From assembly GCA_012861695.1 (NCBI GenBank), contig JAAOOA010000203.1, forward strand, positions 207,501 through 271,500: 64,000 nucleotides of DNA, in the 5' to 3' direction. Below the pieces are notes generated by a model. That model searched no databases. It was given only the letters and a program-made list of their open reading frames with translations, and was not told the origin of the DNA. Shown here in pieces: positions 5,731 to 53,307 of the stretch. How positions within the stretch are numbered: position 1 is the stretch's first letter; each line of letters begins with the position of its first letter. Source of the stretch: Trematomus loennbergii (Eukaryota > Chordata > Actinopteri > Perciformes > Nototheniidae). The position numbers were made by a program, and so were the translations under genes.

Positions 5731-6448
5731 GGCCCAATCCCAAACCACGCCCTACACCCTACCCCTACACACTACCCCTCCGTTTGCGCGTTCGCGCGGA
5801 GGGTCCGCCACGTTAAGTGCTGTTCCAAACCAACGAATGTGGAGCGGGGTGGAGGGGGAGTGGACTATCAAGCCCTCAAACAGTGAGTCTGCAGCGGTGC
5901 TGACTTGAGACTGGTCTCTACCTGACCGGAGGCACGCTGTGTGTGTCCGTCAGGAAACACGCTGTTTACAAGTAGTTCCAGCAAACATCCACTGATAAAT
6001 TGCGATGTTAACAACCTCATGATAACCTCATATTTGTTTAACTTAGGATCATACCTGTGTTTAGTCTAGAAAAAGGTAAATGTGTGCATTTTATTATAAA
6101 GTTGTGTATATTTACAGACTGTTGCAAAAACTAAGAAGCTTATAAACATCAGGTTTAAAACTAAAAGAGCTTTACAAATAAGTAACACAATGAAAGATGT
6201 TTGGAGTTTTATTTGAGTTATTAATTTACATGTTTTTGTCTAAGAGATGCTGATTTGAAACCGTTGTTACATACAGTTACGGAATTTCCTGTTTCTGCCG
6301 GAGAGAGGGGAGTTTGTCCCAAAGCTTGCCGCTGTATTTACTCCCTCCATCTGACAGGAGGGAGCCTCATTCAGCTGCGAGTGTGGCTACAGACGGAGTT
6401 CACTCCGTCACGGAGGGGTAGGGTCGAGGAGTGGTTTGGGATTGGGCC
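5731..6448. mobile_element. TIR element with GGCCCAATCCCAAACC ends (copy 1)
   Basis: Begins GGCCCAATCCCAAACC and ends GGTTTGGGATTGGGCC, a perfect 16-bp terminal inverted repeat. Flanking 9-mers tatctctct (5722-5730) and taactctct (6449-6457) match at 8 of 9, suggesting a 9-bp TSD. GC-rich sub-terminal regions contain 'gaggggtagggtcgagg'. A second copy starts at 31606. The superfamily is uncertain; a 9-bp TSD would be Mutator-like. Confidence 0.75.
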
Positions 6449-7301: not shown

Positions 7302-7880
7302 TTTTAGAATATGATGCATTGCTGCAGATTAACTAACCAACAGAATATCAAGGAGTTAAAACATCTAGAGCAGAACACTGCAATACATGCAGCAGTACAC
7401 CTGCACACTTTAACTTTAAGTGAGGTTTCTTTTTTAATGCAGGATGGTAACTTGCCCTGGGTTATTTTCACACTGTGGTTTTTATTTAATAACTTTGTTC
7501 TGCTTGTGTTTAGCTGCATGTCTATTTGAATATAATCCCTGTGTGTTCCTGTTCGGCTGATAAGGCTGGTTATGAAACAAGGGAGGAGCTGCAGACAGGT
7601 GAGGACGTTGAAAGTCAAAGTAGGAAGTGAGACGGCCAGACTCCATATTACACTTCGACGGAGCAGGAGGAGGAAAACAGGTGAGTGTTAACACGGGCTC
7701 TGCTGCGTGTTTATGACATGAATAATGTACTCTGTTAAACTGTATGTATAAAAAAAGTAGTTATCAAAACAAAAACAATTCCTAGGTCCAGGTGACATTT
7801 TCAAATGTTGTAAACTTTTTAATATCCCGGTTTCTGATTCAGTTTACATAACAGCAGGTTCGAGTTATGTGGAGCCAATG
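7302..7880 (+). promoter_or_regulatory. NLR 5' region, copy A: proximal part and first exon
   Basis: Homologous to copy C (about 29000-29460), and its 3' half to copy B (14935-15320). The conserved core runs from 'tgtttagctgcatg' through 'gaggagctgcagac' and 'acacttcgacggagcaggag' to a splice donor, gaaaacag|gtgagt, at 7680/7681. No long open frame crosses it, so it is probably an untranslated first exon with upstream sequence. No NACHT or LRR exon follows before copy B, so this start appears orphaned. The function is inferred from position relative to the exons downstream of copy C. Confidence 0.6.
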
Positions 7881-14934: not shown

Positions 14935-15320
14935 CTCTGGCTCTGCTTTGTTTAGCTGCATGTTTATTTGAATATAATCCCTGTATGTGTTCCTGTTCAG
15001 CTGGTAAGGCTGTTTGAACAAAGAGAGGAGCTGCAGTCAGGTGAGGGACGTTGAAAGTTAAAGTATGAAGTCAGACTGGTCAGACTAGTCAGACTGGTCA
15101 GACTCCGTTTTACACTTCGACGGAGCAGGAGGAGGAAAACAGGGTGAGTGTTAACACCAGGCTCTGCTGCATTTTTAAGACATTACACATGTACTCTGTT
15201 AAACTGTATGTATACAAAAGTAGTTAACAAACAAAAACAGTTCCTAGGGTCCAAGGTGACATTTTCAAATGTTGTAAACTTTTTATTTTCCTGGTTTCTG
15301 ATTCAGTTACATAACAGGGA
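14935..15320 (+). promoter_or_regulatory. NLR 5' region, copy B, with first-exon donor
   Basis: Nearly the same sequence as copies A and C from 'gtttagctgcatg' through 'gaggagctgcag' to 'cttcgacggagcaggaggag'. The donor is agg|gtgagt at 15143/15144. The following approximately 170 bp of intron also matches copy A to 'tctgattcagttacataaca'. Within the exon, 'cagactggt' is repeated (15078-15105), extending this copy relative to A and C. The distal upstream block seen in A and C is absent. Inferred to be the start of a second NLR unit. Confidence 0.62.
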
Positions 15321-15989: not shown

Positions 15990-16207
15990 AGAATGTGAAA
16001 ATACGTATCCGTAACGAGCCAGCGGGTTGTTCTGGTGGACCTTACGCCATCCCCCGATGTCTCACGGAGAGATACCGCAGGTCCTTCCTTCCTGCAGCGG
16101 TCAGACTATACAACCAGCACGGCCCCTAGTAGACCCCCCATACACACAGACACACACACACAGCAACACAGACTATAACACCTCTTGTTGTTAAATACCA
16201 ACTATTG
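15990..16207 (+). pseudogene. LINE ORF2 C-terminus and start of 3' UTR
   Basis: A frame ending at about 16131 reads …TERYRRSFLPAAVRLYNQ… then stops. This is the typical end of a fish non-LTR retrotransposon ORF2. The 3' UTR follows, is interrupted by the MITE at about 16208, and resumes at 17355. The 5' part is missing, as expected of a truncated LINE copy. Confidence 0.65.
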
Positions 16208-17354
16208 CCCCTTTCACACCAACGCGTTTTCAGCGCCGGCTCGGAGCTGGAGCTGAAAAGTACCGGTTTTTCCTGTTCACACTGCAGCGGCGCCGCCTAT
16301 TAGCTCCGGAATCCGGTTCACTTCCAGCTCCAAAAAATTGTCGGTCTAGAGGCAAGAGCTTCGGAGCTAAGAGGCGGCGTCGCTTACGTCTCTCTTACGT
16401 CGAGGCGTGCAGGAAACTAAACCCACCTCCCCTGAACATGGGTCGACTGAAGAGTCTCGTCATGCCTGCCTACAAGCAGTAGCGCTGAGCAAAGTGACTA
16501 GAAGGCAACCACACACTTACAAAAAAAAACACACTTTATAAAGTCAGCAACACTAACCAGGCTTCGTGTGATTCTGTTTATTTGTACCTTACTTTGACCA
16601 TCCGTTTGCTGTTATTGATCATTGTGGAGAGCAGGCAGACGTTTTGTTTGTTATTATAGCAGCTATCGGATGGAATCAATACATGGGCTGCACAGGTTGT
16701 CATGTCCGACTATCACAAGTAGAATCATAATGAAAAATACGTCGGTAAAATGTGCCTGTAGAAAACGGCTTAGCAAGTAGTCAGTTTAGCTTCGGTTGCT
16801 ATGCTAACATCACCCATGTTATACCAGAGAAACTTTCATAACAGCGTTGTGATGCCAAACAGCGTCAATTCAGACTGACACACATTCACTTAAGGGAACT
16901 GGGGATATGTATCAGCTGCTTGTGTGACAGTCAGACAGTGAATACTTTAGAGCCGTGTGAGCTAACCCGGAGCTAACGGGAGAATACACTCCCGTGGAAG
17001 AGCAGCCAGCACTGCAGCGGTCGGTAAATGCCGCTGAAAACACATTAATAAACAATGAACCACGGCACTCTGGAGAAAAGTATAAGGTTGGAGAAGTCGT
17101 TATTTAATTTAATCTGGCTTCGTATGATTAAAAGCAACACGATCATCGACCCGACGCAGTCCCCGGCCCGTTGTTGTTGTTGTTGTTGTGAGCTCCGTTG
17201 GGGAGAAAATCAGCGACGTAAACTGTGACGTCATGACGCAGCAGCGGCAGCTCTGGGCGGTGTGAACAAAGCGGGAGCAGAAAAGGGAAACCGGAGCTGA
17301 ACCAGAAAAGCTCTCGCGAGGAGCTAGAAAGGGAAAAGCGCTGGTGTGAAAGCC
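16208..17354. mobile_element. TIR element 'CCCTTTCACACCAACGCG', copy 1
   Basis: Left end cccctttcacaccaacgcg and right end aaaagcgctggtgtgaaag are inverted repeats. It sits in a LINE 3' UTR. A second copy at 40342-40946 shares the left terminus and about 600 bp, including 'gcttcgtgtgattctg' and 'ggatggaatcaatacatgg'. Short (TTG)n at 17172. No transposase frame. I could not define a TSD. Confidence 0.7.
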
Positions 17355-17582
17355 GCATATGTGCAATATTTGCAATATATATATATATGCCGTTAAAAAC
17401 TGTGCAATATATACCTGGCTGCTAAATCCTCAGAACTGTTACAGGATGTGTATTATGTAAATTGTATAACTTTTTATTTACTTTAATACTTTTTGATGCA
17501 TGTAACATATGTAACATTAAGCCGTCTGTGGCTCTTTTTCTGCTGTAACAACGTAAATGTCCCTCTGTGGGACATAATAAGG
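17355..17582 (+). mobile_element. LINE 3' UTR and tail
   Basis: AT-rich sequence ending 'cctctgtgggacataataa' would continue at 27879 with 'aataaaggtattctgattctga', a polyadenylation-like signal plus a short-repeat tail. The hAT-like element 17583-27878 is inserted exactly in this tail. The family (L2, CR1 or another clade) is not resolved. Confidence 0.6.
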
Positions 17583-20500
17583 CAGGGCGGTTTTTGGCAT
17601 AGGGCCTAGGGCGCCAGATCTGGGGGGCGCTGCGCTGGTAGCTCTGGGAGGGAAAGAAATTGCGACTGTTTATAATTAAGTAAATGTAACACCCTTTTCA
17701 CCCGGTTACACTTTCCATTTGCCCTGTACGATGGGCGCTGTAAGTGATGAACTGGGGGGTGTTGGCTTATCAGGCGTCCACAGCTCACAGCCAAAGTGGG
17801 CGTGGGAGCAAGCAAGAGAGATAAATGCAATTTACGTAAACAAATATTTCCAAGACACTCCTTTATAATTAATGGATAAACAGGTTTGAAATCGTTTCAA
17901 TGTAAACTATAGGACAGTAAACCGAAAATATCGTTTAAAGTGGAATATTAAACATATGCATAAATAAATGTTAACTGGGTAAAATAAGATATGAATGAAC
18001 AGAAAAATAAAAATAAGTTAGGCCTACATTTATTTTGTATTGGCTATGGTAGGTTATTGGTTATGTTCACATAACCAATACACCATAGGTTATTTGGTTA
18101 TTAAAATGTAAACCGATCTTTTTCATATGGGTGTTTAGAGTTGTACCCCCTAGGTCTAATCAATAGTAATTGTGTGCTCAAAGTGCACCAGATTGAAGCA
18201 TTTTACTTTAAAATAAATGAATTTATACTACTGCTGTTTGGCACAGTTTCCCTTTCCACAAATATATTGATTGAATACAAAATAAAAATATCAGGTCGGG
18301 AGATTAGACTGTGAAGTTCCTATGCTCTCTCTACCCTCCCTCCCTCTCCGCGTCTCGCTCACAGCGGTGCGGACATCGGCAGTCCCTTCAGACAGACAGG
18401 TAGCAGCACTCCCACTTTACAGTCCCTTCAGACAGACAGGTAGCAGCACCTTCCACTTTACAGTCCCTTCAGACAGACAGTAGCAGCACCTCCCACTTTA
18501 CAGTCCCTTCAGACAGACAGGTAGCAGCACCTCCCACTTTGCAGTCCCTTCAGACAGACAGGTAGCAGCACCTCCCACTTTACTGTCCCTTCAGACAGAC
18601 ATGTAGCAGCACCTCCCACTTTAAAGTCCCTTCAGACAGACATGTAGCAGCACCTCCCACTTTACTGTCCCTTCAGACAGACATGTAGCAGCACCTCCCA
18701 CTTTACTGTCCCTTCAGACAGACAGGTAGCAGCACCTCCCACCTGACAGTCCCTTCAGACAGACATGTAGCAGCACCTCCCACTTTACTGTCCCTTCAAA
18801 CAGACAGGTAGCAGCACCTCCCACCTTACAGTCCCTTCAGACAGACATGTAGCAGCACCTCCCACCTTACAGTTCCTTCAGACAGACAGGTAGCAGCACC
18901 TCCCACCTTACAGTCCCTTCAGACAGACAGGTAGCAGCACCTCCCACCTTACAGTTCCTTCAGACAGACAGGTAGCAGCACCTCCCACTTTACTGTCACT
19001 TCAGACAGACAGGTAGCAGCACCTCCCACTTTACTGTCCCTTCAGACAGCAGGTAGCAGCACCTCCCACTTTACTGTCCCTTCAGACAGACATGTAGCAG
19101 CACCTCCCACTTTACTGTCCCTTCAGACAGACAGGTAGCAGCACCTCCCACTTTACTGTCCCTTCAGACAGACAGGTAGCAGCACCTCCCACCTTACAGT
19201 TCCTTCAGACAGACATGTAGCAGCAACTCCCACTTACTGTCCCTTCAGACAGACAGGTAGCAACACCTCCCACCTGACAGTCCCTTCAGACAGACAGGTA
19301 GCAGCACCTCCCACTTTACTGTCACTTCAGACAGACAGGTAGCAGCACCTCCCACCTTACTGTCCCTTCAGACAGACAGGTAGCAGCACCTCCCACTTTA
19401 CTGTCACTTCAGACAGACATGTAGCAGCACCTCCCACTTTACTGTCCCTTCAAACAGACAGGTAGCAGCACCTCCCACCTTACAGTCCCTTCAGACAGAC
19501 ATGTAGCAGCACCTCCCACCTTACAGTTCCTTCAGACAGACAGGTAGCAGCACCTCCCACCTTACAGTCCCTTCAGACAGACAGGTAGCAGCACCTCCCA
19601 CTTTACTGTCACTTCAGACAGACAGGTAGCAGCACCTCCCACCTTACTGTCCCTTCAGACAGACAGGTAGCAGCACCTCCCACCTTACTGTCCCTTCAGA
19701 CAGACAGGTAGCAGCACCTCCCACTTTACTGTCCCTTCAGACAGACAGGTAGCAGCACCTCCCACTTTACTGTCCCTTCAGACAGACAGGTAGCAGCACC
19801 TCCCACTTTACTGTCCCTTCAGACAGACAGGTAGCAGCACCTCCCACCTTACAGTCCCTTCAGACAGACAGGTAGCAGCACCTCCCACTTTACTGTCCCT
19901 TCAGATAGACAGGTAGCAGCACCTCCCACTTTACTGTCCCTTCAGACAGACAGGTAGCAGCACCTCCACCTTACTGTCCCTTCAGACAGACAGGTAGCAG
20001 CACCTCCCACCTTACAGTCCCTTCAGACAGACAGGTAGCAGCACCTCCCACCTTACAGTCCCTTCAGACAGACAGGTAGCAGCACCTCCCACCTTACTGT
20101 CCCTTCAGACAGACAGGTAGCAGCACCTCCCACTTTACTGTCCCTTCAGACAGACAGGTAGCAGCACCTCCCACTTTACTGTCCCTTCAGACAGACAGGT
20201 AGCAGCACCTCACACTTTACTGTCCCTTCAGACAGACAGGTAGCAGCACCTCCCACCTGACAGTCCCTCCAGACAGACAGGTAGCAGCACCTCCCACCTT
20301 ACAGTCCCTTCAGACAGACATGTAGCAGCACCTCCCACCTTACAGTTCCTTCAGACAGACAGGTAGCAGCACCTCCCACCTTACAGTCCCTTCAGACAGA
20401 CAGGTAGCAGCACTCCCACCTTACAGTTCCTTCAGACAGACAGGTAGCAGCACCTCCCACTTTACTGTCACTTCAGACTGACAGATAGCAGCACCTCCCA

Positions 20501-23500
20501 CTTTACAGTCCCTTCAGACAGACAGGTAGCAGCACCTCCCACTTTACTGTCCCTTCAGACAGACATGTAGCAGCACCTCCCACTTTACTGTCCCTTCAGA
20601 CAGACAGGTAGCAGCACCTCCCACTTTACTGTCCCTTCAGACAGACAGGTAGCAGCACCTCCCACCTTACAGTTCCTTCAGACAGACATGTAGCAGCACC
20701 TCCCACTTTACTGTCCCTTCAGACAGACAGGTAGCAGCACCTCCCACCTGACAGTCCCTTCAGACAGACATGTAGCAGCACCTCCCACTTTACTGTCCCT
20801 TCAAACAGACAGGTAGCAGCACCTCCCCCTTACAGTCCCTTCAGACAGACATGTAGCAGCACCTCCCACCTTACAGTTCCTTCAGACAGACAGGTAGCAG
20901 CACCTCCCACCTTACAGTCCCTTCAGACAGACAGGTAGCAGCACCTCCCACTTTACTGTCCTTCAGACAGACAGGTAGCAGCACCTCCACTTTACTGTCC
21001 CTTCAGACAGACAGGTAGCAGCACCTCCCACCTTACTGTCCCTTCAGACAGACAGGTAGCAGCACCTCCCACCTTACAGTCCCTTCAGACAGACAGGTAG
21101 CAGCACCTCCCACCTTACAGTCCCTTCAGACAGACAGGTAGCAGCACCTCCCACCTTACTGTCCCTTCAGACAGACAGGTAGCAGCACCTCCCACTTTAC
21201 TGTCCCTTCAGACAGACAGGTAGCAGCACCTCCCACTTTACTATCACTTCAGACAGACAGGTAGCAGCACCTCCCACCTTACAGTCCCTTCAGACAGACA
21301 GGTAGCAGCACCTCACACCTTACTGTCCCTTCAGACAGACAGGTAGCAGCACCTCCCACCTTACAGTCCCTTCAGACAGACAGGTAGCAGCACCTCACAC
21401 CTTACTGTCCCTTCAGACAGACAGGTAGCAGCACCTCCCACCTGACAGTCCCTTCAGACAGACAGGTAGCAGCACCTCCCACTTTACTGTCCCTTCAGAC
21501 AGACAGGTAGCAGCACCTCCCACCTTACTGTCCCTTCAGACAGACAGGTAGCAGCACCTCCCACTTTACAGTCCCTTCAGACAGACAGGTAGCAGCACCT
21601 CCCACTTTACAGTCCCTTCAGACAGACAGGTAGCAGCACCTCCCACTTTACTGTCCCTTCAGACAGACAGGTAGCAGCACCTCACACTTTACTGTCCCTT
21701 CAGACAGACAGGTAGCAGCACCTCCCACTTTACAGTCCCTTCAGACAGACAGGTAGCAGCACCTCCCACCTTACAGTCCCTTCAGACAGACAGGTAGCAG
21801 CACCTCCCACTTTACTGTCCCTTCAGACAGACAGGTAGCAGCACCTCCCACCTTACAGTCCCTTCAGACAGACAGGTAGCAGCACCTCCCACTTTACAGT
21901 CCCTTCAGACAGACAGGTAGCAGCACCTCCCTTTACAGTCCCTTCAGACAGACAGTAGCAGCACCTCCCACCTTACAGTCCCTTCAGACAGACAGGTAGC
22001 AGCACCTCCCACTTTACAGTCCCTTCAGACAGACAGGTAGCAGCACCTCCCACTTTACTGTCCCTTCAGACAGACAGGTAGCAGCACCTCCACCTTACAG
22101 TCCCTTCAGACAGACAGGTAGCAGCACTCCCACTTTACAGTCCCTTCAGACAGACAGGTAGCAGCACCTCCCACCTTACAGTCCCTTCAGACAGACAGGT
22201 AGCAGCACCTCACACTTTACTGTCCCTTCAGACAGAGGTAGCAGCACCTCCCACCTTACAGTCCCTTCAGACAGACAGGTAGCAGCACCTCCCACTTTAC
22301 AGTCCCTTCAGACAGACAGGTAGCAGCACCTCACACTTTACTGTCCCTTCAGACAGACAGGTAGCAGCACCTCACACTTTACTGTCCCTTCAGACAGACA
22401 GGTAGCAGCACCTCCCACCTTACAGTCCCTTCAGACAGACAGGTAGCAGCACCTCCCACCTTACAGTCCCTTCAGACAGACAGGTAGCAGCACCTCCCAC
22501 TTACAGTCCTTCAGACAGACAGGTAGCAGCACCTCCCACTTTACAGTCCCTTCAGACAGACAGGTAGCAGCACCTCCCACTTTACAGTCCCTTCAGACAG
22601 ACAGGTAGCAGCACCTCCCACTTTACTGTCCCTTCAGACAGACAGTAGCAGCCCTCCCACTTTACTGTCACTTCAGACAGACATGTAGCAGCACCTCCCC
22701 TTTACTGTCCCTTCAAACAGACAGGTAGCAGCACCTCCCACCTTACAGTCCCTTCAGACAGACATGTAGCAGCACCTCCCACCTTACAGTTCCTTCAGAC
22801 AGACAGGTAGCAGCACCTCCCCTTACAGTCCCTTCAGACAGACAGGTAGCAGCACCTCCCACTTTACTGTCACTTCAGACAGACAGGTAGCAGCACCTCC
22901 CACCTTACTGTCCCTTCAGACAGACAGGTAGCAGCACCTCCACCTTACTGTCCCTTCAGACAGACAGGTAGCAGCACCTCCCACTTTACTGTCCCTTCAG
23001 ACAGACAGGTAGCAGCACCTCCCACTTTACTGTCCCTTCAGACAGACAGGTAGAAGCACCTCCCACTTTACTGTCCCTTCAGACAGACAGGTAGCAGCAC
23101 CTCCCACCTTACAGTCCCTTCAGACAGACAGGTAGCAGCACCTCCCACTTTACTGTCCCTTCAGACAGACAGGTAGCAGCACCTCCCACTTTACTGTCCC
23201 TTCAGACAGACAGGTAGCAGCACCTCCCACCTTACTGTCCCTTCAAACAGACAGGTAGCAGCACCTCCCACCTTACAGTCCCTTCAGACAGACAGGTAGC
23301 AGCACCCCCACCTTACAGTCCCTTCAGACAGACAGGTAGCAGCACCTCCCACCTTACTGTCCCTTCAGACAGACAGGTAGCAGCACCTCCCACTTTACTG
23401 TCCCTTCAGACAGACAGGTAGCAGCACCTCCACTTTACTGTCCCTTCAGACAGACAGGTAGCAGCACCTCACACTTTACTGTCCCTTCAGACAGACAGGT

Positions 23501-26500
23501 AGCAGCACCTCCCACCTGACAGTCCCTTCAGACAGACAGGTAGCAGCACACCTCCCACCTTACAGTCCCTTCAGACAGACATGTAGCAGCACCTCCCACC
23601 TTACAGTTCCTTCAGACAGACAGGTAGCAGCACCTCCCACCTTACAGTCCCTTCAGACAGACAGGTAGCAGCACCTCCCACCTTACAGTTCCTTCAGACA
23701 GACAGGTAGCAGCACCTCCCACTTTACTGTCACTTCAGACAGACAGGTAGCAGCACCTCCCACTTTACAGTCCCTTCAGACAGACAGGTAGCAGCACCTC
23801 CCACTTTACTGTCCCTTCAGACAGACATGTAGCAGCACCTCCCACTTTACTGTCCCTTCAGACAGACAGGTAGCAGCCCTCCCACTTTACTGTCCCTTCA
23901 GACAGACAGGTAGCAGCACCTCCCACCTTACAGTTCCTTCAGACAGACATGTAGCAGCACCTCCCACTTTACTGTCCCTTCAGACAGACAGGTAGCAGCA
24001 CCTCCCACCTGACAGTCCCTTCAGACAGACATGTAGCAGCACCTCCCACTTTACTGTCCCTTCAAACAGACAGGTAGCAGCACCTCCCACCTTACAGTCC
24101 CTTCAGACAGACATGTAGCAGCACCTCCCACCTTACAGTTCCTTCAGACAGACAGGTAGCAGCACCTCCCACCTTACAGTCCCTTCAGACAGACAGGTAG
24201 CAGCACCTCCCACTTTACTGTCCCTTCAGACAGACAGGTAGCAGCACCTCCCACTTTACTGTCCCTTCAGACAGACAGGTAGCAGCACCTCCCACCTTAC
24301 TGTCCCTTCAGACAGACAGGTAGCAGCACCTCCCACCTTACAGTCCCTTCAGACAGACAGGTAGCAGCACCTCCCACCTTACAGTCCCTTCAGACAGACA
24401 GGTAGCAGCACCTCCCACCTTACTGTCCCTTCAGACAGACAGGTAGCAGCACCTCCCACTTTACTGTCCCTTCAGACAGACAGGTAGCAGCACCTCCCAC
24501 TTTACTGTCACTTCAGACAGACAGGTAGCAGCACCTCCCACCTTACAGTCCCTTCAGACAGACAGGTAGCAGCACCTCACACCTTACTGTCCCTTCAGAC
24601 AGACAGGTAGCAGCACCTCCCACCTTACAGTCCCTTCAGACAGACAGGTAGCAGCACCTCACACCTTACTGTCCCTTCAGACAGACAGGTAGCAGCACCT
24701 CCCACCTGACAGTCCCTTCAGACAGACAGGTAGCAGCACCTCCCACTTTACTGTCCCTTCAGACAGACAGGTAGCAGCACCTCCCACCTTACTGTCCCTT
24801 CAGACAGACAGGTAGCAGCACCTCCCACTTTACAGTCCCTTCAGACAGACAGGTAGCAGCACCTCCCACTTTACAGTCCCTTCAGACAGACAGGTAGCAG
24901 CACCTCCCACTTTACTGTCCCTTCAGACAGACAGGTAGCAGCACCTCACACTTTACTGTCCCTTCAGACAGACAGGTAGCAGCACCTCCCACTTTACAGT
25001 CCCTTCAGACAGACAGGTAGCAGCACCTCCCCCTTACAGTCCCTTCAGACAGACAGGTAGCAGCACCTCCCACTTTACTGTCCCTTCAGACAGACAGGTA
25101 GCAGCACCTCCCACCTTACAGTCCCTTCAGACAGACAGGTAGCAGCACCTCCCACTTTACAGTCCCTTCAGACAGACAGGTAGCAGCACCTCCCACTTTA
25201 CAGTCCCTTCAGACAGACAGGTAGCAGCACCTCCCACCTTACAGTCCCTTCAGACAGACAGGTAGCAGCACCTCCCACTTTACAGTCCCTTCAGACAGAC
25301 AGGTAGCAGCACCTCCCACTTTACTGTCCCTTCAGACAGACAGGTAGCAGCACCTCCCACCTTACAGTCCCTTCAGACAGACAGGTAGCAGCACCTCCCA
25401 CTTTACAGTCCCTTCAGACAGACAGGTAGCAGCACCTCCCACCTTACAGTCCCTTCAGACAGACAGGTAGCAGCACCTCACACTTTACTGTCCCTTCAGA
25501 CAGACAGGTAGCAGCACCTCCCACCTTACAGTCCCTTCAGACAGACAGGTAGCAGCACCTCCCACTTTACAGTCCCTTCAGACAGAAAGGTAGCAGCACC
25601 TCACACTTTACTGTCCCTTCAGACAGACAGGTAGCAGCACCTCACACTTTACTGTCCCTTCAGACAGACAGGTAGCAGCACCTCCCACCTTACAGTCCCT
25701 TCAGACAGACAGGTAGCAGCACCTCCCACCTTACAGTCCCTTCAGACAGACAGGTAGCAGCACCTCCCACCTTACAGTCCCTTCAGACAGACAGGTAGCA
25801 GCACCTCCCACTTTACAGTCCCTTCAGACAGACAGGTAGCAGCACCTCCCACTTTACAGTCCCTTCAGACAGACAGGTAGCAGCACCTCCCACTTTACTG
25901 TCCCTTCAGACAGACAGGTAGCAGCACCTCCCACTTTACTGTCCCTTCAGACAGACAGGTAGCAGCACCTCACACTTTACTGTCCCTTCAGACAGACAGG
26001 TAGCAGCACCTCCCACCTGACAGTCCTTCAGACAGACAGGTAGCAGCACCTCCCACCTTACAGTCCCTTCAGACAGACATGTAGCAGCACCTCCCACCTT
26101 ACAGTTCCTTCAGACAGACAGGTAGCAGCACCTCCCACCTTACAGTCCCTTCAGACAGACAGGTAGCAGCACCTCCCACCTTACAGTTCCTTCAGACAGA
26201 CAGGTAGCAGCACCTCCCACTTTACTGTCACTTCAGACAGACAGGTAGCAGCACCTCCCACTTTACAGTCCCTTCAGACAGACAGGTAGCAGCACCTCCC
26301 ACTTTACTGTCCCTTCAGACAGACATGTAGCAGCACCTCCCACTTTACTGTCCCTTCAGACAGACAGGTAGCAGCACCTCCCACTTTACTGTCCCTTCAG
26401 ACAGACAGGTAGCAGCACTCCCACCTTACAGTTCCTTCAGACAGACATGTAGCAGCACCTCCCACTTTACTGTCCCTTCAGACAGACAGGTAGCAGCACC

Positions 26501-27878
26501 TCCCCCTGACAGTCCCTTCAGACAGACATGTAGCAGCACTCCCACTTTACTGTCCCTTCAAACAGACAGGTCAGCACCTCCCACCTTACAGTCCCTTCAG
26601 ACAGACATGTAGCAGCACCTCCCACCTTACAGTTCCTTCAGACAGACAGGTAGCAGCACCTCCCCTTACAGTCCCTTCAGACAGACAGGTAGCAGCACCT
26701 CCCACTTTACTGTCCCTTCAGACAGACAGGTAGCAGCACCTCCCACTTTACTGTCCCTTCAGACAGACATAGCAGCACCTCCCACCTTACTGTCCCTTCA
26801 GACAGACAGGTAGCAGCACCTCCCACCTTACAGTCCCTTCAGACAGACAGGTAGCAGCACCTCCCACCTTACAGTCCCTTCAGACAGACAGGTAGCAGCA
26901 CCTCCCACCTTACTGTCCCTTCAGACAGACAGGTAGCAGCACCTCCCACTTTACTGTCCCTTCAGACAGACAGGTAGCAGCACCTCCCACTTTACTGTCA
27001 CTTCAGACAGACAGGTAGCAGCACCTCCCACCTTACAGTCCCTTCAGACAGACAGGTAGCAGCACCTCACACTTACTGTCCCTTCAGTCAGACAGACAGG
27101 TAGCAGCACCTCACACTTTACAGTCCCTTCAGACAGACAGGTAGCAGCACCTCCCACTTTACAGTCCCTTCAGACAGACAGGTAGCAGCACCTCAACTTT
27201 ACTGTCCCATGTTATGCCGGCTTTTCTGGCTTGTTTGAAGCTGAGTGGTGATGAACAAATGACTAAACTGCCAGTGCTCGAGTTTACAGCTAATTAGCCA
27301 AAAGACAAAAACAAATATAGGCATTGCAGGTGAAAAGGATAAAACTAAAAACAAACAAAAAAACACATCACCTCACAACTTCCCCAGATACTTACTTACG
27401 TCAAGTCAGTATTTTCCCCTGAAATGTTATGTTTAAATGCAGATTAGCTTTAAATCTATAGATACATTCAGACATGTTAATAAAAACGAACACCCATTTA
27501 TATGTTTTTTGAAGTTTCCATTAGAGTGAAAGAAAACATGGAAGCAAAATAGACCAAAATAACAAAATATACATGAAAAAGGATCTTTTTGCCTGTAATG
27601 TCCTTAAACAGTAACTTCATCATTTTGATTGTTGGCTGCACATTTAATAACTATTAATTGTACTAGTTGTCTGCTCTTGTGCGTAGTGAATACTAAAGAA
27701 GACCATTGTCTCTGTGTTAGCTGATTATTTTGTAGAATTATGTTGAGTATTAAACAATTGCGTGAGTGTGAGGGTATTAAATAAATTGGTCAGTAAGTCA
27801 GAGATGTGCAACTATATTTAACCTTTTGCGCCAGCTAAAATCTCGCCTAGGGCAGCAAATTGGTTAGAACCGGCCCTG
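17583..27878. mobile_element. 10.3-kb hAT-like element hosting a giant minisatellite
   Basis: Left end CAGGGCGGTTTTTGGC…TAGGGCGCC and right end GCCTAGGGCAGC…AACCGGCCCTG are inverted repeats of a common fish hAT type. Flanks are ata-ataagg (17574-17582) and aataaagg (27879-27886). They agree if the left copy lost one A, and the LINE tail outside is then restored. About 1.5 kb is unique sequence, and the other 8.8 kb is the 41-bp array at 18380-27208. No transposase is seen. Confidence 0.72.
18380..27208. repeat. 41-bp minisatellite array, ~215 copies
   Basis: The unit begins cagtcccttcagacagacag, continues gtagcagcacctcccac, and ends with a variable ctttact/ctttaca/ccttaca/cctgaca. The period is 41 bp. 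Recurrent variants are: t at the first 'gt' (acatgtag), 'ttcaaacag', 'cagttcc', 'ctgtcac' and 'cctcacac'. Blocks of variants recur, giving higher-order repeats. Scattered copies have one-base losses (for example gcactccc and cctccacc). Both edges are sharp and no long open frame exists in the array. It lies in a transposon and not between genes. Confidence 0.98.
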
Positions 27879-27898
27879 AATAAAGGTATTCTGATTCT

Positions 27899-28522
27899 GA
27901 AACTACGATCTCAACAGCTCGCTTAACGGAACTTTGACGCTGGTATCAGTTTGGTTTCCCACCAATCACGGGAGTATTGTGTATAGAAAGTGTTGAGTTT
28001 ATTTCTCGCGCTACCTAACATCCATGAAGGCAACATGACAGAGGGAGTGCTGTCACTCAGGATGCCAAACTACTCTTTGTTAAGCCCTGCCCCCCAAGCA
28101 CATCAGGGCCAAAGTTTGAACGCGAAAAAAAAAAGATCTGAAAGCGGATAAAACGGTCAAACCTGAAAAAAACAAGATTTGAAAATGAAAAAATAATGTT
28201 TTGAATCTGAAAATGTAAAATCTGCAACTGAAAAAAAATAGGATTTCAAATATCAAAATATGTATAAAAGTAAAATATGAAAAATAAATATTTTATTCTA
28301 AATAATTGCTGAACCGAATCAAATAATATTAAACCTGAAAAATTATTTCAAATATTTATTTTTTGTTTGAATACATCATTATATTTTTCAAAGTTCAGGA
28401 TAAAAACTTGATCTTTCAAATAAATTGTATTTTTTTTGAATGATCAAAACTTATGACCCTGATATAGCTCCATATATATGTGTGTGTGTGTGTGTCTGCA
28501 GTGTTACTAGTTTATCTCTCAG
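27899..28522. other. Spacer 5' of NLR exon
   Basis: Contains purine-rich 'tgaaaatgaaaaaa'-type imperfect repeats (28120-28440) and a short (GT)n at 28481-28495 just before the exon. No gene recognised. If the copy B start belongs to this exon, this is intron. Confidence 0.5.
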
Positions 28523-28789: not shown

Positions 28790-29460
28790 CTGTTACAACA
28801 TATTTTAGAAAGAAAAATAATAATATACGTTTATCGAAGTACAATGCCCATAAACTACATGTCCCACAATGCACCTCGTTCTGTGACCTGCCACTGAGAG
28901 TCTTTATATCAGGCCGTTTCTAGCAGCGGAACAGTCAGTGAGTGCACCCTCTCTTTAGCAATAAGTGGTTTTCACAGGACATGGTTACACAAATAAGATC
29001 TCTTAGAATATGATGCATTGCTGCAGATTAAACTAACCAACATCATTTTAAGGAGTTAAAACATCCGAGCAGTAAACTCAATACATGCAGCAGTTCACCT
29101 GCACACTTTAACTTTAGTGAGGTTTTTTTTAATGCAGGATTTTACTTGCACTGGGTTATTTTCAAACTGTTTTAATAGCTTTGTTCTGCTTGTGTTTAGC
29201 TGCATGTCTATTTTTATCTTACTGAATATAACCCTGTGTGTTCCTGTTCAGCTGGTAAGGCTGGTTTGAAACAAAGGGAGGAGCTCAGACAGGGAGGGAC
29301 GTTGAAAGTTAAAGTACGAAGTCAGAGTGGTCAGACTGCCAGACTCCATTTTCACTTCGACGGAGCAGGAGGAGGAAAACAGGGTGAGTGTTAACACCAG
29401 GCTCTGCTAGGTTTTTTAGACAATAATAATTTACTCTGTTAAACTGTCAAAAAGGATTTG
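28790..29460 (+). promoter_or_regulatory. NLR 5' region, copy C, intact, with first exon
   Basis: This is the uninterrupted version of copy A, from the AT-rich block through 'tttatatcaggccgttt', 'ttcacaggacatggttacac', 'tctcttagaatatgatgcat' and 'gaggagctcagac' to the donor agg|gtgagt at 29383/29384. It serves as an empty site for both transposons in copy A. It is the nearest candidate start for the RING-NACHT-LRR exons downstream. Promoter activity is inferred from this position and from conservation among three copies. Confidence 0.65.
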
Positions 29461-31605: not shown

Positions 31606-33956
31606 GGCCCAATCCCAAACCGCCCCCTACACCCTATCCCTACACACTACCCCTCCGTTTGCGCGTTCGCGCGGAGGGTCCGCCACGTTAAGTGCTGTTC
31701 CAAACCAACGAGTGTGGAGCGGTGTGGAGGGGGAGTGGGCTATCAAGCCCTCAAACAGCGAGTCTGCAGCGGTGCTGACTGGAGACCGGTCTCTACCTGA
31801 CCGGAGTCCCGCTGTGTGTGTCCGTCAGGGAAACACGCTGTTTACAAACAGTTCCAGCAAACATCCACTGATAAACTGCGATGTTAACAACCTCATGATA
31901 ACCTCAACTTAGGATCATACCTGTGGTTAGTCTAGAAAAAGGTAAATGTGTGCATTTTATATTAAAGTTGTGTATATTACAGACTGTTGCAAAAACTAAG
32001 AAGCTTATAAACATCAAGTTTAAAACTAAAAGAGCTTTACAAAAAGTACACAATGAAAGATGTTGGAGTTTATTTTGAGTTATTAATTTTCATTTTTTGT
32101 CAAAGAGATGCTGATTTGAAACCGTTGTTACATACAGTTACGGAATTTCCTGTTTCTGCCGGAGAGGGGAGTTTGTCCCAAAGCTTGCCGCTGTATTTAC
32201 TCCCTCCATCTGACAGGAGGGAGCCTCGTTGAGCTGCGAGTGTGGCTACAGACGGAGTTCAAACAGGTTGAAATCGTTTCAATGTAAACTATAGGACAGT
32301 AAACCGAAAATATCGTGAGCGTCCATTCCCATTGGATAACGGAGAATTGTACACCCGGAAGTAACTATTCCCCTTACTGTATTGATTTGACAGTGATATC
32401 TCCACTACTCATCAACTCAAAAACACCAGATTATCCTTGTTAATTAAATGACATTGATAGGTTTAGTGTGTGTACAATGCTTTTGTCACGTTTTCCCCTT
32501 CAATTCTGAGAAACAAGTCGTTTTCTGTGAGTTTTGGATGGCCGAAGACATTACATTACCCACAATCCTCTGTAGCAACCATAGACTGTATATTGCAACA
32601 GGCAACAGCTTCGGTCATGTTAATTTACAAACTCTTCAACTACAACCGTAGTATATTTAAAAACATGTTAGAAGGCCTCACGAAATACTTTAATGTAAAT
32701 TAAAATGTAAATGTGAAGGAATGTGTGTATATTAACTGTGGGTTTTTCTCTGGAAGTTTTTCCTTGTACGATGTGAGGGTCAAAGGGCAGATGATGCAGT
32801 TTTTCTCATACTGATATCCGCTATGCACGCTGGGATTTGGTGTTTATGCGATGTGAAATCCAAAAACATTTAAAAAAAATTAAATAATACATTATTCCGA
32901 GTGTGCTTGCTTTTCTCTTTGAAAGTCATCACATAACGGCATTGTAATACACGTTTCAGCTGCATTAAATATTACATATCTGCCGTAGTTAACTCTGCCC
33001 TGATGAGAACACTTCTAGACAAACAGGAACTGCCGCCAAAACTGAAAACTTGACGTGGATCTTAAATATATAAGCAATTAAACAACACTTACATTTCTTT
33101 TCACACAATACGTCTCCTTGCAGTATCAACACTAATTCGGCTGACTTTTATATTTGATCCAATTGGTAGATAGGCTGTATTTACGCCATAACGGTGCACA
33201 GCTGATAGAAAGGGACACCTACTGGTTAAAGCACGTTATTGCATTTTATAATTTTATTATTAGATATTAATAGGATCCCTATAAAGTATATTCTTTACTC
33301 GTCGTTATTCTCTACTAATAGTTAATTAAAGACTGTATATAATGACTATTTTGCACATCCCATTCAAGATTTCAAGATTTTCTAAGGTTTATTGACATAT
33401 CATATTATACACAACTACGGTGTAGTTATGCAATGAATGAAAAACTTGGGTCGCAGGTTCCTCAACAGTGCATTACAAGACATCTATCAATATGTGTGTA
33501 CCTCCACCATTACATTGTCATATTCTGCACATTTCTTATACTATCTACATACATCTTATAAGAGTATAATACATATGTATAATATCAGTTAAAATAAGTG
33601 CTTAAACATAGTTAACATTGCAGGAAAGCAATATATTAGACGTTAAGTACTTTGTCAGGCTTAATATTTATCTGTAGATACAAATTTCACTGTGTGTGCT
33701 GTGTGCTCTGCATGTGTGACCATCAAAGAGGGTTTCATCCCTCCATATTCATCTTCTATACCCCCAAAGCTTTTTTCTTATTCAAAAGAAGACCTTAACC
33801 TAAAGTATTCTTTAATGTTTAAATAAAGCCTTATTAGTTTGTCTGTTTTGCACATCCTCCTATTAATATCTAATAATACAATTATAAAATGCAATAACGT
33901 GCTTTAACCAGTAGGTGTCCCTTTCTATCAGCTGTGCACCGTTATGGCGTAAATAC

Positions 33957-37445: not shown

Positions 37446-37980
37446 GTTATGTGATGACTTCCAAAGAGAAAGCAAGCACACTCGGAATAATGTATTATTT
37501 AATCTTTTTAAATGTTTTCGGATTTCACATCGCATAAACACCAAATCCCAGCGTGCATAGCGGAATATCAGTATGAGAAAAAACTCATCATCTGTCCTTT
37601 GACCCTCACATCGTACAAGGAAAAACTTCCAGAGAAAAACCCACAGTTAATATACACACATTCCTTCACATTTACATTTAAATTTACATTAAAGTATTTC
37701 GTGAGGCCTTCTAACATGTTTTTAAATATAACTACGGTTGTAGTTGAAGAGTTTGTAATGAACATGAACCGATGCTGTTGCCTGTTGCAATATACAGTCT
37801 ATGGTTGCTACAGAGGATTGTGGGTAATGTAATGTCTTCGGCCATCCAAATCTCATAGAAAACTACTTGTTTCTCAGAATTGAAGGGGAAAACGTGACAA
37901 AAGCATTGTACACACACTAAAACCTATCAATGTCGTTTAATTAACAAGGATAATCTGGTGTTTTTGAGTTGATGAGTAGT

Positions 37981-38666
37981 GGAGATATCACTGTCAAATC
38001 AATCGACAGTAAGGGGAATAGTTACTTCCGGGTGTACAATTCTCCGTTATCCAATGGGAATGGACGCTCACATTGCCTTTAACAGCCTCCGACACAAACG
38101 AATGCCGTGCTTCCATGAGCGTCAAATCCCGCCGCAGATGGGAATACATTGCAATCAGTTGAAAGCTATTTGCGTCTGTTTATGAAGCTGAAGGAGCCTA
38201 GGAGCGTCACAACTGGACGCCTCGGACCCTGACAAAGCGTCGCTCCTGGACGTTTATGGAGTGAGAGTGTGTTGCGGAGGGGTAGGGTCGAGGGAGTGGT
38301 TTGGGATTGGGCCTAGTATTCAATTCAGAAAGTGATTTGAGTGATTATGTCACATGACCTGGAAGTCATTGAATGAGATATCACTGTAAAATCAATCGAC
38401 AGTAAGGAGAATAGTTACTTCCGGGTGTAAAATCCTCCGTTATCAATGGGAATGGCGCTCACATTGCCTTTAAATGCCGCCGACATGGACCGATGCGGTG
38501 CTTCCCTGAGCGTAAATACCGCTGCCGATGGGAATACATTGCAATCAGTTGAAAGCTCTTTGCGTCCGTTTATGAAGCTGAAGGAGCCTAGGAGCGTCCC
38601 AACTGCACGCCACGGGACCCTGACCAAGCATCGCTCCTGGACGTTTAGGGAGTGAGAGTGTGTTGG
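37981..38666. repeat. Direct duplication of a ~290-bp module
   Basis: 37981-38274 and 38376-38666 are about 85-90% alike by eye. Both run from 'gagatatcactg' through 'aatagttacttccgggtgta', 'gaagctgaaggagcctagga' and 'gagtgagagtgtgttg'. The 38-bp right end of the GGCCCAATCC element and a fragment of the ~153-bp foldback unit (38330-38375) lie between them. Confidence 0.75.
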
Positions 38667-39840: not shown

Positions 39841-40341
39841 TAGCAGGTCGTTGAACGCGGGGGATCGCCGTCTCCCCACTTATTTGGAGTCCCCACTTTT
39901 TTGAAGCATGATTTTTTTTTTAATAGTCAAGTCTAAGCATTTATGCAACTTAGGCCTATCAATTGTTTATGTAACACATGTAAAATTTATGTGCGGTGTG
40001 TCCATGGTTTTGAGTCTGTGTGTGTGTTGAGCGAAGCGCTGTCTGCTTTTTGCAGTACAGTAACTAAAGTAGGACTAAGCATACTGGTAGTTTCTGTAGA
40101 CCTGCTGTCTTCCCGTTTTATGAGTGCACTGCGCACTTGTTTGGGATGACTAGGGTGACCAGATGTCCCTTTTGCAGGACTGCACAGTATTTTTATCATT
40201 TGTCCCGTCCCACAAATTGAGACTATGTCCCGCATTTGAGAGACAGTCGCGCAGAAAGTTTGGCTCGCTGACGTCCGGCACCGCCCTTCATTATTATATT
40301 TTAAACAGCATCATGTAAGTTGCGCTGACAGCCGACAGATG
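39841..40341. other. Spacer with a further transposon edge
   Basis: 'tagggtgaccagatgtccct' at 40151 looks like a transposon left terminus. No mate is seen before the element at 40342. Confidence 0.4.
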
Positions 40342-40946
40342 CCCCTTTCACACCAACGCGGTTCCAGGGCCGGTTTCGGAGCTAGAGCCTGAAAAGCACA
40401 GTTTTTTCCTGTTCACACACCGCAGCGGAGCCGCCTCTAAGCTCCGACAAACGGTGCTTTTCAGCACCACATTTTTCCGCCTAGAAGCAAGAACCGCATA
40501 CGTCGCGCTTACGTCGGAGGCGGGGGCGGGGGCAGGGGCGGGATCAACCTGAGCAATAACAGTTTACGGCGAGTACGGCAAATGAAAGTTGTAACAAGCA
40601 GTAGTGCTGAGCAAAGTGACAAGAAGGCAACCACACCTTATTAAAAAAACACACTTTATAAGTCAGGCAACACTAACCAGGCTTCGTGTGATTCTGTTTA
40701 TTTGTACCTTACTTTGACCATCCGTTCGCTGTCATTGATCATTGTGGAGAGCAGGCAGACGTTTTGTTTGTTATTATAGCAGCTATCGGATGGAATCAAT
40801 ACATGGCTGCACAGGTTGTCATGTCCGACTATCACAAGTAGAATCATAATGAAAAATACGCCGGTAAAATGTGCCGGCTTATGCCACAATAGGATAGCAA
40901 CAGTAGTCAAGATAGTCAGTTTAGCTTCGGTTGCTATGCTAACATC
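40342..40946. mobile_element. TIR element 'CCCTTTCACACCAACGCG', copy 2, truncated
   Basis: Shares its left terminus and about 600 bp with 16208-16811, then diverges at 'atgctaacatc'. The right half is missing. Non-coding. Confidence 0.72.

Positions 40947-41952: not shown

Positions 41953-42018
<66 letters not shown>
41857..42018. repeat. (GT)n microsatellite abutting an NLR exon copy
   Basis: TG tract of about 160 bp with TTTTG and TGG interruptions that runs to within four bases of the decayed exon at 42022. The related exon at 28523 has only a short GT tract 27 bp upstream. Confidence 0.97.
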
Positions 42019-42019
<1 letters not shown>

Positions 42020-42021
42020 TA

Positions 42022-42143
42022 ACTGGAGAAGATGGGTGAGGAGAGGACAAGTCTCCAGTCTCCAGCTGTCTGTCTCTGAAGAGTGGCTGGTCTATAGTGC
42101 AACCTCTAAACCTCAGTAATGAACCTGGACCCTCAGACACAAA
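42022..42143 (+). pseudogene. Decayed copy of the NLR N-terminal exon
   Basis: About 85% identical to 28523-28643 and followed by the same intron sequence. Three lesions are visible. The acceptor cag is replaced by taa (tgtgtctaactgg). A TGA arises early in the ancestral frame (gatgggtga). An extra C near 42110 (aaacctcag) shifts the frame. A short frame from ATG at 42035 also ends in TGA. It sits at the expected position upstream of the RING exon. Confidence 0.75.
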
Positions 42144-42318
42144 GTAAGAGTTTCTACTGTAATCTGACCTGAAGAGGATTCAGTTTTTATATCATCTGAT
42201 CATCTGAACTGTTCTTTAATAATCGCAGTAAAGACACACGTATTGTAACACAGTTTAATTGAACTGTTGCTCCTTAGCAGCAATAGTAAATGATCTACTA
42301 GTGAAATCCTCCTCACAC
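42144..42318. other. Intron after the exon copy
   Basis: The first ~90 bp parallel 28644-28740. No other feature. Confidence 0.6.
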
Positions 42319-42748: not shown

Positions 42749-43376
42749 GATGTTGGACTTTGTGTTAAAGAAAGCTTATCAAATACAAACATGTACAACT
42801 TTTCACTCTCAAATGAAATGTAACAGCAGAAACCAACAAGCAAGACTAAAAAACAAAAGATTCAGAAAAAACAGTGATCATGTGAAAAGACAGAAATCAA
42901 AAGCAATGTTAGCTTAGCTTTAATGAAACTGATCTCATTCGGAAAACAAACTTTATAAAGTGTTTTGCTCGTCGCGTTTCAGACGGACCTGACAAAGCAT
43001 TAGCTCAGGGTGTTTACAAATCACTATCATTACGTTGTTATTTCGGCATCCTTTCCATATTTGTATTGGAAATTCTATGTATAATGGTTTTATAATGTTA
43101 TTATTATTATTATTATGTTGTACCAGATGAATACAGCTTGGTGTGTCTCAGTAGATACAGTGAACATGTGCTCCTCTGGATGATGTCATGAATCCAGACA
43201 GGATGCTGTTTGCTTTTATAATAATGTGAAGCTTAAACTACCTACCTGATCATGCAGATATATTAAATAGAGATATAGACCTTTTTAAAATGTGAAACTT
43301 TCCTCCTTGTCGTACGATTGGTGAAATCCTCGACCACTAATGTAAAGAGCTATAAAGGATGTGTTCATCTCCACAG
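42749..43376. other. NLR intron, no further feature recognised
   Basis: AT-rich with (ATT)n at 43098-43115. It ends in the acceptor of the RING exon. Confidence 0.5.
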
Positions 43377-43612
43377 AGGGAAGAGGAGAAGTTATGTTCC
43401 TGTGGAGGAGCAGCTGTACAGCTGTGCTCTGTGTCAGGACGTCCTGAAGGATCCAGTCTCTACCAGCTGTGGACACTGGTTCTGCAGACAGTGCATCACC
43501 TCATACTGGGAGCAGAGACCTCCATCAGGAGACCCCTCCTGTCCCCAGTGTGGAGAAAGACCCAGAACCAGAGCTGGACTGCAGACAGCCAGTCAGACCA
43601 GCTCTGTACGAG
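43377..43612 (+). CDS. RING-finger exon of an NLRC3-like receptor
   Basis: About 236 bp between ctccacag|aggg and cgag|gtaaga. The frame encodes YVPVEEQLYSCALCQDVLKD followed by a C3HC4 RING: C-x2-C (CALC), CGHWFC-x2-C, and CPQC. This zinc-finger exon occurs between the N-terminal exon and the FISNA-NACHT exon in many fish NLRs. It could confer E3 ligase activity or mediate protein contact, but activity is not shown. The frame is intact across the exon. The next exon of this unit lies 14 kb downstream, past the Gypsy insertion. Confidence 0.85.
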
Positions 43613-43809
43613 GTAAGAGGCCGGACACATGCAGCATCTTTACCTCCATCTGGGCGCTGGGTGTTTTCTCTTCTTAAGAAACACTATCATCTGATCTTTT
43701 CTTTAAGGCATTATTTTTAAACTTTGTTCAAAAATATTAACCTACAAAAAGCTTTCAGTCTAAATCAGGAAAACATTAGTCCTGCACAAATATAACACTT
43801 GCGTATGAT
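43613..43809. other. NLR intron
   Basis: Ordinary intron sequence up to the MITE. Nothing recognised. Confidence 0.5.
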
Positions 43810-44040
43810 CAGAGGTGGGAAATAACTAAGTACATTTACTCAAGTACTGTACTTAAGTACAATTTAAAGGTACTTAATGCTACCTTGTACTTCTACTCCA
43901 CTACAGTTCAGAGGTACATGGTGTACTTTTCCTCCACTACATGTATTTTAGTTACTTCACAGATCTGGATGAATGATGTGAAATATAATCAAGTGTTTAA
44001 ATCAGACTTTAGTTCCACCTGGAGTAAATCCACAAGCTAC

Positions 44041-44339
44041 TGTAACAGGCCCCACTATGCAGGGTGCGATAACAGATTATATTCCTGTAAAACAGGAGAA
44101 ATTATGAGCAGAGAATTCCTTTTGCTGCTCGTTTGGCGGGTCTTGCCAGAATGGCAAGCTAACGACAGCTCCGTCATCACGTCAGACATTTTACGGCAGA
44201 CGCGTAAATAATAACCAACCCCTTAGCGGCAGTGATACCCTGCCATCTACTGCCCCTGCTGTCCATTGTTAAACAGGTCATATAAAATCATATTAAATAT
44301 AAACATACAATTGTGATTACACACTTTGTGTGGGTCACA
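44041..44339 (-). repeat. 3' LTR, 299 bp
   Basis: Begins TGTAACAGGCCCC and ends TGTGGGTCACA. Compared with the other LTR, it lacks the segment between two direct repeats (see findings) but is colinear on both sides. Identity outside the gap is high by eye. Confidence 0.88.
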
Positions 44340-48200: not shown

Positions 48201-49668
48201 TAACTGTCACGTTTGAAGGGACGAAACCGTGACATATTCACGTCTCCCAGCATGGTAGATCGTCACATGTTCACGTCTTGCCGTGATACCGGGTTGATTA
48301 TTAAATAATCATTTAAATAATTATTTTCCCCAATACACGTTACTATGTTTGGATCAGATATGTGGGCAGGCAGTCAAGCAACGTGTAAAAAGCCTCAACC
48401 CCAAGTGAGCTTGTAGTCTTAATTAATGTTAGCGTGTGTGCTTAGCTGTAAACACAGTCGGATGGGTGACCAAAACGTCCCCGTTTTCCGGGCAAAGTCC
48501 CCGTTTTCGGTGGCCGGTACCCGGTTGAAACTCCCGAAAATGTTCCCGTTTTTGACTGTGCGTTAAAAAACATAGAGCACGGTGAAATAAAACGTTACAT
48601 GTCAGTAAAAACAGAGTAACAGTGTTGTGCCTGTTTGTAGCGTTAGCGTATTTCTCCTTCTTCTTCTTCTTCTTCTTCTACTTCTAATTCAATGCCCGCG
48701 AGATATTGGACAAAAGAAACCTAGTGTCAACTAAATCCATAGTATTACAACAAAAGTGCTTTAAACGAGGTAAATTACGAATTTATGTTCTCAATCTCCA
48801 AGTGTGGGATTGAATATTAAATTAGTTTAGATTAGATGTATTGTCCCCAGGGGGAAATTCATTTTCACAGCTCTGTGAAAACAATATCAAATCAACAAAA
48901 AATAAGACAGACAACTATAGATAGCACCACACATGATGGTTACTTGTTATTATTTAGGGTTGCCTGTATGGAACAGGTTTCTGCCAAAGCGAGCCCTTTT
49001 ACTATAATAATAATAATAATAATATGTTAGGCCTATGTATTATATAACCATATGGGTACAATGAGCGACATCTAGTGGCGGATTGTGGAACATTGATCAG
49101 ATTTTTCTCATGGCAGTTAGACTCTAGAGATAAACCAGGGGACTTTATGTTTATGTTTAATCTGTGTCTGTCCATTTGGTGTAGTGTTTGATCCAATATT
49201 ACATTTGGTTTATATATTAGTCACTTTCTTATGAAATGCCAGGTTTTAAGCCTTGGTTTGAACATTCAATCCAGGAAATAATTGTTCTTTAATCCTGACA
49301 TGACTAGAGTAGATAGCTAGTAAGTAAGTCTGATAGGAAGAGGAGTTAAGGGATAGAGGAGTAAAGGTTATGGTATAATTACAGAGCCTGTCAATGTATA
49401 AATGGAGGAAATCAATGTTAGTCTGTTAACCAAAGTGCAGCCATCTAATAAAGTACTATTATTAAAGATCAGAGGAAAATAACCGAACGAGAGGGGTAAA
49501 TCCGGAATTAAAATAAAGAAGCAAAGAGATTGTAGAGCAGTGAGAAGGGAAAAAGCTTGGTGTGTCAATTCATTACATTGCCGTTTTTTTTACGTTGTTG
49601 TGAAAAAGAATCGCCACCTCGGATTTGTTAACAGCCCCCTCAGTCATTTCATCCTGGAGCCGGGCCTG
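45230..49668. mobile_element. hAT-like element, 4.4 kb, inserted in Gypsy pol
   Basis: Ends are CGGGCCCGGCGCCACG and CCTGGAGCCGGGCCTG (inverted repeats). The exact 8-bp TSD is ctctaggt (45222-45229 and 49669-49676). 'gccccctca' repeats lie inside both ends. It contains the foldback 45348-48296. Outside that, the right part (48305-49630) is AT-rich with (TTC)n at 48655-48678 and (ATA)n at 49004-49024, and has no transposase. Confidence 0.88.
45348..48296. mobile_element. Foldback element, 2.95 kb
   Basis: Begins caacccggtatcacggcaag and ends with its reverse complement at 48296. The exact 8-bp TSD is attattaa (45340-45347 and 48297-48304). The arms exceed 1 kb and are nearly identical in reverse, e.g. 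gccctagctggtcgacacct (left) against its complement near 48035. The loop (about 46690-47280) includes a decayed MITE copy at 46860-47030. The inner arms match those of the 32316-38075 foldback but the outer ~400 bp do not. Confidence 0.88.
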
Positions 49669-49676
49669 CTCTAGGT

Positions 49677-51860: not shown

Positions 51861-52153
51861 TTACTCCATGCTGCGCTGAAAAGCAGCAGTGGCGTTGGAG
51901 AGTCCAAAAGGTATCCTCACCCACTCATATAGACCCCAGGGGGTGATGAACGCCGTCATGTGTCTGGATCCTTCAGCAATGTAGCCTTGGCCTTGCCTTG
52001 GTCTAAAATGCTATTTATTTATAAAGGGGCTTGGTCACTGCACTGTATGTGCGCTGAACTGGGATGTTGTCCTTTAAGTTGATGTCCCCATCATCTTTAG
52101 CAAAGGCTGCCGATTCCTCGTGTAACATCTGTTCCACCTTCATCTGTTGCTCA
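51861..52153 (-). pseudogene. Gypsy RT, N-terminal part with a large internal deletion
   Basis: Minus-strand sequence reads a pre-RT segment ending in …TKPLYK (about 52020) and passes directly to …ILDQGKA… (about 51995). The fingers and early palm expected in this family, roughly 80 codons, are missing. An in-frame stop (tggagtaaatg on the minus strand) follows at about 51862. Together these abolish RT activity. Confidence 0.75.
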
Positions 52154-53300: not shown

Positions 53301-53307
53301 TACGCTC

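Follow-up and report, generated by a model that had tools for sequence, protein, structure and literature searches.

A 41-bp minisatellite of 216 units inside a likely hAT-type element among NLR-like sequences of a fish

How does a minisatellite of 8.8 kb come to lie within a mobile element of ~1.5 kb, and by what route did it reach this length? We address this question for a locus within a 64-kb stretch of fish DNA (the window). The answer we favour, with moderate confidence, is that a non-autonomous hAT-like element hosts a minisatellite that was probably seeded inside it and grew in place by block duplication. The features that define the array and its carrier are as follows.

17583-18379, plus strand: left part of the hAT-like shell, 797 bases, starting CAGGGCGGTTTTTGG (sequence reading and end scan)
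18380-27208, plus strand: 41-bp minisatellite, 216 whole units and 7 bases (Tandem Repeats Finder and decomposition)
27202-27208, plus strand: last partial unit, CTGTCCC, which pairs with CAGTCCC at 18380 (decomposition)
27209-27878, plus strand: right part of the hAT-like shell, 670 bases, ending CCGGCCCTG (sequence reading and end scan)

The array and its edges are read directly from the sequence. Tandem Repeats Finder placed the array at 18380-27208 with a period of 41, 216.2 copies, 94% matches and a score of 15182, bearing out the original prediction of about 215 copies of a 41-bp unit at the same coordinates. Wrap-around decomposition resolved it into 216 whole units, in 59 distinct forms, plus a 7-base remainder, and 95.7% of unit columns matched the consensus when columns absent from the truncated final unit were scored as differences. 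The head-to-tail arrangement of 41-bp units falls within the range of roughly 10-100 bp that defines a minisatellite. The unit has no other copy in the window: a query of two units run against the array-masked 64 kb gave a longest match of just 13 bases. Both edges lie within 17583-27878, as had been proposed from the sequence, with a probable target duplication outside. The shell that remains when the array is removed measures ~1.5 kb (797 bases on the left and 670 on the right), and the array is indeed about six times the length of its carrier (8829/1467 = 6.0).

Nothing that we found indicates a function for the array. Stop codons in six of six frames of the unit consensus rule out a protein-coding array, and no Rfam match reached the gathering threshold within the window. 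With regard to what might drive instability of the unit, self-folding showed no excess on either strand, comparison with the minisatellite core yielded nothing above chance, and the Chi motif is absent.

The terminal inverted repeats of hAT transposons are generally 12 bp long and the target-site duplication is 8 bp, according to the available portion of one report (PMC4807377). The shell begins with CAGGGCGGTTTTT and its right end, reverse-complemented, reads CAGGGCCGGTTCT; 11 of the 13 aligned terminal columns are equal, with one gap and one mismatch, and similarity further inside is patchy. The shell has terminal inverted repeats of the hAT kind, in imperfect form. The probable target duplication pairs a left copy, AATAAGG, which falls one base short of 8 bp, with a right copy, AATAAAGG. 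A scan for inverted ends accompanied by a target duplication in 16901-18379 and 27209-28400, with thresholds fixed after the ends had been seen, returned the shell and one other pair from the real flanks, against three pairs in total from 12 Markov-resampled sets of flanks. The second real pair presumably passed by chance. Both the hAT label and the LINE label used below for the flank derive from end motifs and not from a library hit. From this moderate structural evidence we infer that 17583-27878 is likely a hAT element.

No transposase was detected by Pfam in 17606-17896 (96 aa), which alone among the frames of 90 aa or more lies entirely within the non-array shell; the frame at 17422-17697 straddles the left end. 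When one mismatch was allowed, CAGGGCCGG matched the window at nine places, two of them exact (one being the end of the shell itself) and seven with a mismatch, against a shuffle mean of 4.25, and nine were reached in 2 of 100 shuffles. The other exact match to CAGGGCCGG, at 40365, was rejected as a second hAT element; it lies within a different repeat family that is also present at 16206. Comparison of the window with itself yielded one further segment within the left part of the shell.

17878-17934, plus strand: 57-base segment, 98% identical to 32261-32316 (window self-comparison)

This segment is perhaps DNA captured by the shell. Its second site, at 32261-32316, sits between two longer repeat blocks, one at 31606-32261 (also found at 5731-6402) and the other at 32315-32937 (also found, inverted, at 37446-38071).

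The DNA on either side of the shell comprises the following parts.

17356-17582 (start approximate, placed by eye), plus strand: left part of a LINE-like 3' end, which ends in the target copy AATAAGG (reading)
27879-27899, plus strand: right target copy AATAAAGG and the remaining LINE-like tail TATTCTGATTCTG (reading)

When the two flanks are joined and one target copy is dropped, they form a continuous LINE-like tail, judged by eye against a 3'-end motif, on which the presumed LINE identity is based. The original prediction had described two LINE halves rejoining across the element. The tail does read on across the shell; the right "half", however, amounts to only ~21 bases, and no second copy of the tail was found in the window for comparison. 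This continuity bears on a different explanation of the ends, namely that two separate hAT-like insertions supplied the left and right ends and that the array occupies ordinary DNA between them. Such an arrangement could account for the divergence of the ends past the first 13 columns (except in patches), for the lack of any inverted match above 13 bases between the left and right parts by BLAST, and for the imperfect target duplication, but one would not expect a pair of unrelated insertions to leave a LINE-like tail that is continuous across 10.3 kb. We give this explanation very little credence, and treat the shell below as a single, probably hAT-type, element. Another element has two copies, about 80% alike, at 16206-16811 and 40340-40946, with the left end CCCTTTCACACCAACGCG; by eye, its left copy may extend to ~17354, just ahead of the LINE-like tail.

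Where within the shell might the array have begun? Its borders are sharp, and beyond them the unit matches only 5 of 30 bases on the right and 4 of 30 on the left. The array opens with CAGTCCC at 18380 and closes with CTGTCCC, a 7-base near-repeat (6 of 7 identical) that bounds the whole units. The simplest ancestral state would be a single 41-bp unit together with this near-repeat, which fits a model, described in the accessible part of PMC6947457, whereby a minisatellite is seeded between flanking repeats of 5-10 bp and then expands. In that model, from Haber and Louis, a near-repeat of 5-10 bp bounds the unit, as one may do here, and slippage, conversion or unequal exchange expands it; the near-repeat at this locus, in contrast, is imperfect (6/7) and could be a chance match. 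If remainders are uniform, chance alone would give one of 5-10 bases in about 6 of 41 cases, so we regard the near-repeat as weak support for seeding. At unit position 2, A (111) and T (106) are close to balance, and the same two letters differ between the array edges; this echo is suggestive only.

Seeding need not have followed the insertion. The element family may already have carried a short 41-bp array before it reached this site, as a mobile minisatellite of which only the present length is new. Such a history would place both array edges within the shell, where they are, and elements with internal tandem repeats are described in the portions of two papers available to us (PMC9659126 and PMC6947457). 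We found no other copy of the shell within the 64-kb window, and we consider this history unlikely. Exact-match scans for the unit and for the shell ends in collections of viral and prokaryotic contigs, and for the 57-base segment in the viral collection, gave no matches, a result that carries no weight for fish DNA. Less likely again is the broader proposition that a hAT family bears the 41-bp seed in all of its copies, with large unstable arrays wherever it has inserted, including NLR introns. Were that so, the family would be a recurrent source of rearrangement within NLR immune genes. Seeding inside this one element, followed by growth in place, is the history that we carry forward.

The variant map of the array units, which is newly given here, bears on how that growth may have occurred. 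This map and the repeated blocks within it are observed directly. At a lag of 80 units the proportion of identical units was 0.40, against 0.066 expected. Local alignment of the array as a string of unit forms matched units 26-150 to units 106-211 with a score of 138, where the maximum in 15 shuffles was 11.7, and 75 of the 106 unit pairs in this best alignment were identical. Unit pairs taken at fixed lag (n = 106) differed by 14 substitutions, or ~0.3%, whereas random draws (n = 1000) averaged 195 substitutions with a minimum of 156. The lag was 80 units in the first part of the alignment and 61 units in the last part, with a poorly matching seam between them, and the array can be divided accordingly.

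19442-22704, plus strand: 80-unit block, copy 1 (units 26-105, numbering from 0; unit-string alignment)
22705-26060, plus strand: 80-unit block, copy 2 (units 106-187, at lag 80 from copy 1; alignment)
26061-27035, plus strand: partial third copy of the block (units 188-211, corresponding to units 127-150 at lag 61; alignment)

The array thus contains two copies of a block of ~80 units (~3.3 kb) and part of a third. Copy 2 ends in the poor seam, with 6 of the 14 substitutions falling within pairs 105/185 to 107/187. The third copy seems to be without about 19 units, as judged from the change in lag, and ends short near the right edge. Private unit forms were commoner near the ends of the array, at 7 of the 15 whole units within 8 units of the ends against 31 of the 201 inside (one-sided p = 0.007, for an 8-unit cut of our own choosing), and 4 of the 7 private forms at the edges bear indels that are possibly errors. 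Repeated blocks in an array with decaying ends are what either unequal exchange or duplication of blocks should produce; from the map we infer unequal exchange as the process.

The same map raises the question of whether the array is as long as it appears. The 80-unit blocks could be joined haplotypes or repeated read paths, and the private deletions read errors, in which case the 8.8-kb length would be inflated; this reading is compatible with growth of a minisatellite inside the element. The blocks differ by ~0.3% (14 substitutions over 106 unit pairs), as alleles might. Moreover, among the 106 matching pairs, 142 of 156 substitution variants were held in common, as compared with 0 of 35 deleted columns, suggesting that many of the deletions in the array may be sequencing errors and that long reads would be required to establish the order of the blocks. 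The NACHT region elsewhere in the window is also broken across shifted frames. Weighing on the other side, unequal exchange also yields block repetition, and the partial third copy, at its different lag, would require more than one joining error. We judge an inflated length to be less likely than not, though it is the most probable of the alternatives that we consider, and the blocks could in part reflect a haplotype joining error.

With regard to the deletions themselves, the 216 whole units contain 40 deleted columns, and 34 units bear indels. Twenty-five of the deleted columns lie inside homopolymer runs two or three bases long and 15 outside, such runs making up 15 of the 41 consensus columns. 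Unshared deletions of this kind are the residue that a noisy long-read consensus would leave; very recent mutation is possible but seems less likely. Three deletion-bearing forms nevertheless recur (S twice, P three times and T twice), always at non-matching places, so some of the deletions may be true variants, which argues against a reading of pure error and against an inflated length. Errors of sequencing or assembly may account for some of the indel variation and possibly for some of the repeated blocks, and proof of the 8.8-kb length would have to come from single reads. For studies of repeats more generally, near-identical blocks with unshared deletions are the trace to be expected of assembly and read errors, and arrays that show it should be backed by single reads before being counted.

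The preferred history, of seeding inside the element and growth in place, would then run as follows. A LINE-like tail within a region of fish NLR genes would have received the insertion of a non-autonomous hAT-like DNA transposon of ~1.5 kb. A 41-bp stretch inside this transposon, bounded by CAGTCCC and CTGTCCC, would have been duplicated by slippage or unequal exchange, and the resulting short array would have diversified into unit variants. Growth would then have proceeded through a small number of large steps, most recently the tandem duplication of the ~80-unit (3.3-kb) block together with its partial third copy. Should its length be borne out, the locus would offer a readable record of minisatellite growth, with a bounded carrier, a candidate 7-base seed and an ~80-unit block duplication.

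The origin of a tandem repeat within a transposable element is a known phenomenon, to which this locus belongs, and the suggestion that a transposon is an unusual place for a minisatellite is weak: the available portions of three papers document minisatellites derived from transposable elements (PMC9659126, PMC3389668 and PMC6947457), and those of a fourth describe the comparable case of hobo (PMC4807377). In a survey of the human genome, as far as the accessible text reports it, 7,276 of 31,472 minisatellites derive from transposable elements (PMC3389668). Their edges lie inside the element, as here, but the families named are retroelements (LTR12, L1PA, Alu, HERV-K and SVA), unlike the shell with its hAT-type ends (PMC3389668, same portion). 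hobo, a hAT element of Drosophila, contains an internal tandem repeat (TPE) of variable number; its repeat encodes three residues (presumably 9 bp), falls within the transposase frame and is present in 3, 5 or 7 copies in the part of the report available (PMC4807377), in contrast to the 41 bp and 216 copies found here in a shell without a detected transposase. The MITEs miDNA4, of Xenopus tropicalis, and Xstir, of Xenopus laevis, are comparable in being non-autonomous DNA transposons with an amplified tandem monomer. According to the available portion of PMC9659126, they are element or satellite families, miDNA4 being of the Tc1/mariner type, whereas here a single locus with hAT-type ends is involved. 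Among the literature matches listed, which were open-licence papers judged by title and opening of the abstract, none described a minisatellite of such size in a fish hAT element.

The array lies among sequences that resemble NLR genes. An exon-1-like block occurs in three copies (7304-7854, 14942-15317 and 29003-29447), each of which carries AGGAGGAGGAAAACAG followed by GTGAGT, two of the copies having one additional G in the former. The GTGAGT is a possible splice donor, and the blocks are possibly NLR 5' exons. A six-frame search with peptide patterns gave five hits, including one at 15062, inside the second exon-1-like block, and one at 28574, in a frame that we take to resemble the N-terminal repeat exons found in NLR genes of fish; the sequence surrounding 28574 recurs at 41980-42230. 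The array does separate the second exon-1-like block (~15 kb) from the NLR-like frame at 28574, in line with the claim that it parts an NLR start from the nearest N-terminal exon. It may thus be intronic, flanked by candidate first (15 kb) and second (28.6 kb) exons.

Elsewhere in the window, Pfam identified an open frame in which the beginning of a NACHT domain follows a FISNA domain, a domain specific to fish that makes a fish origin of the window most likely. No further NACHT exons were found by Pfam in 30 of the 75 frames of at least 90 aa, nor when the NLR frames were compared with the masked window by tblastn, which gave one extra, weak hit (E 0.34). At 57629-59074, the FISNA, NACHT, winged-helix and HD2 (below cut-off) domains of one NLR are spread over shifted frames, which could represent a decayed gene or indel errors. 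LTR-retrotransposon-like frames occupy 50317-53341 on the minus strand, with matches to integrase, RNase H and reverse transcriptase and, below cut-off, to a protease; Pfam matched none of the three frames 49649-50335, 52154-52900 and 53308-54549. A RING-finger frame lies at 43279-43677 on the plus strand, and the frame at 43780-44211 is without a Pfam match. Finally, 45341-46309 and 47330-48304 form an inverted pair, ~1 kb apart, with 97.6% identity over 977 aligned columns.
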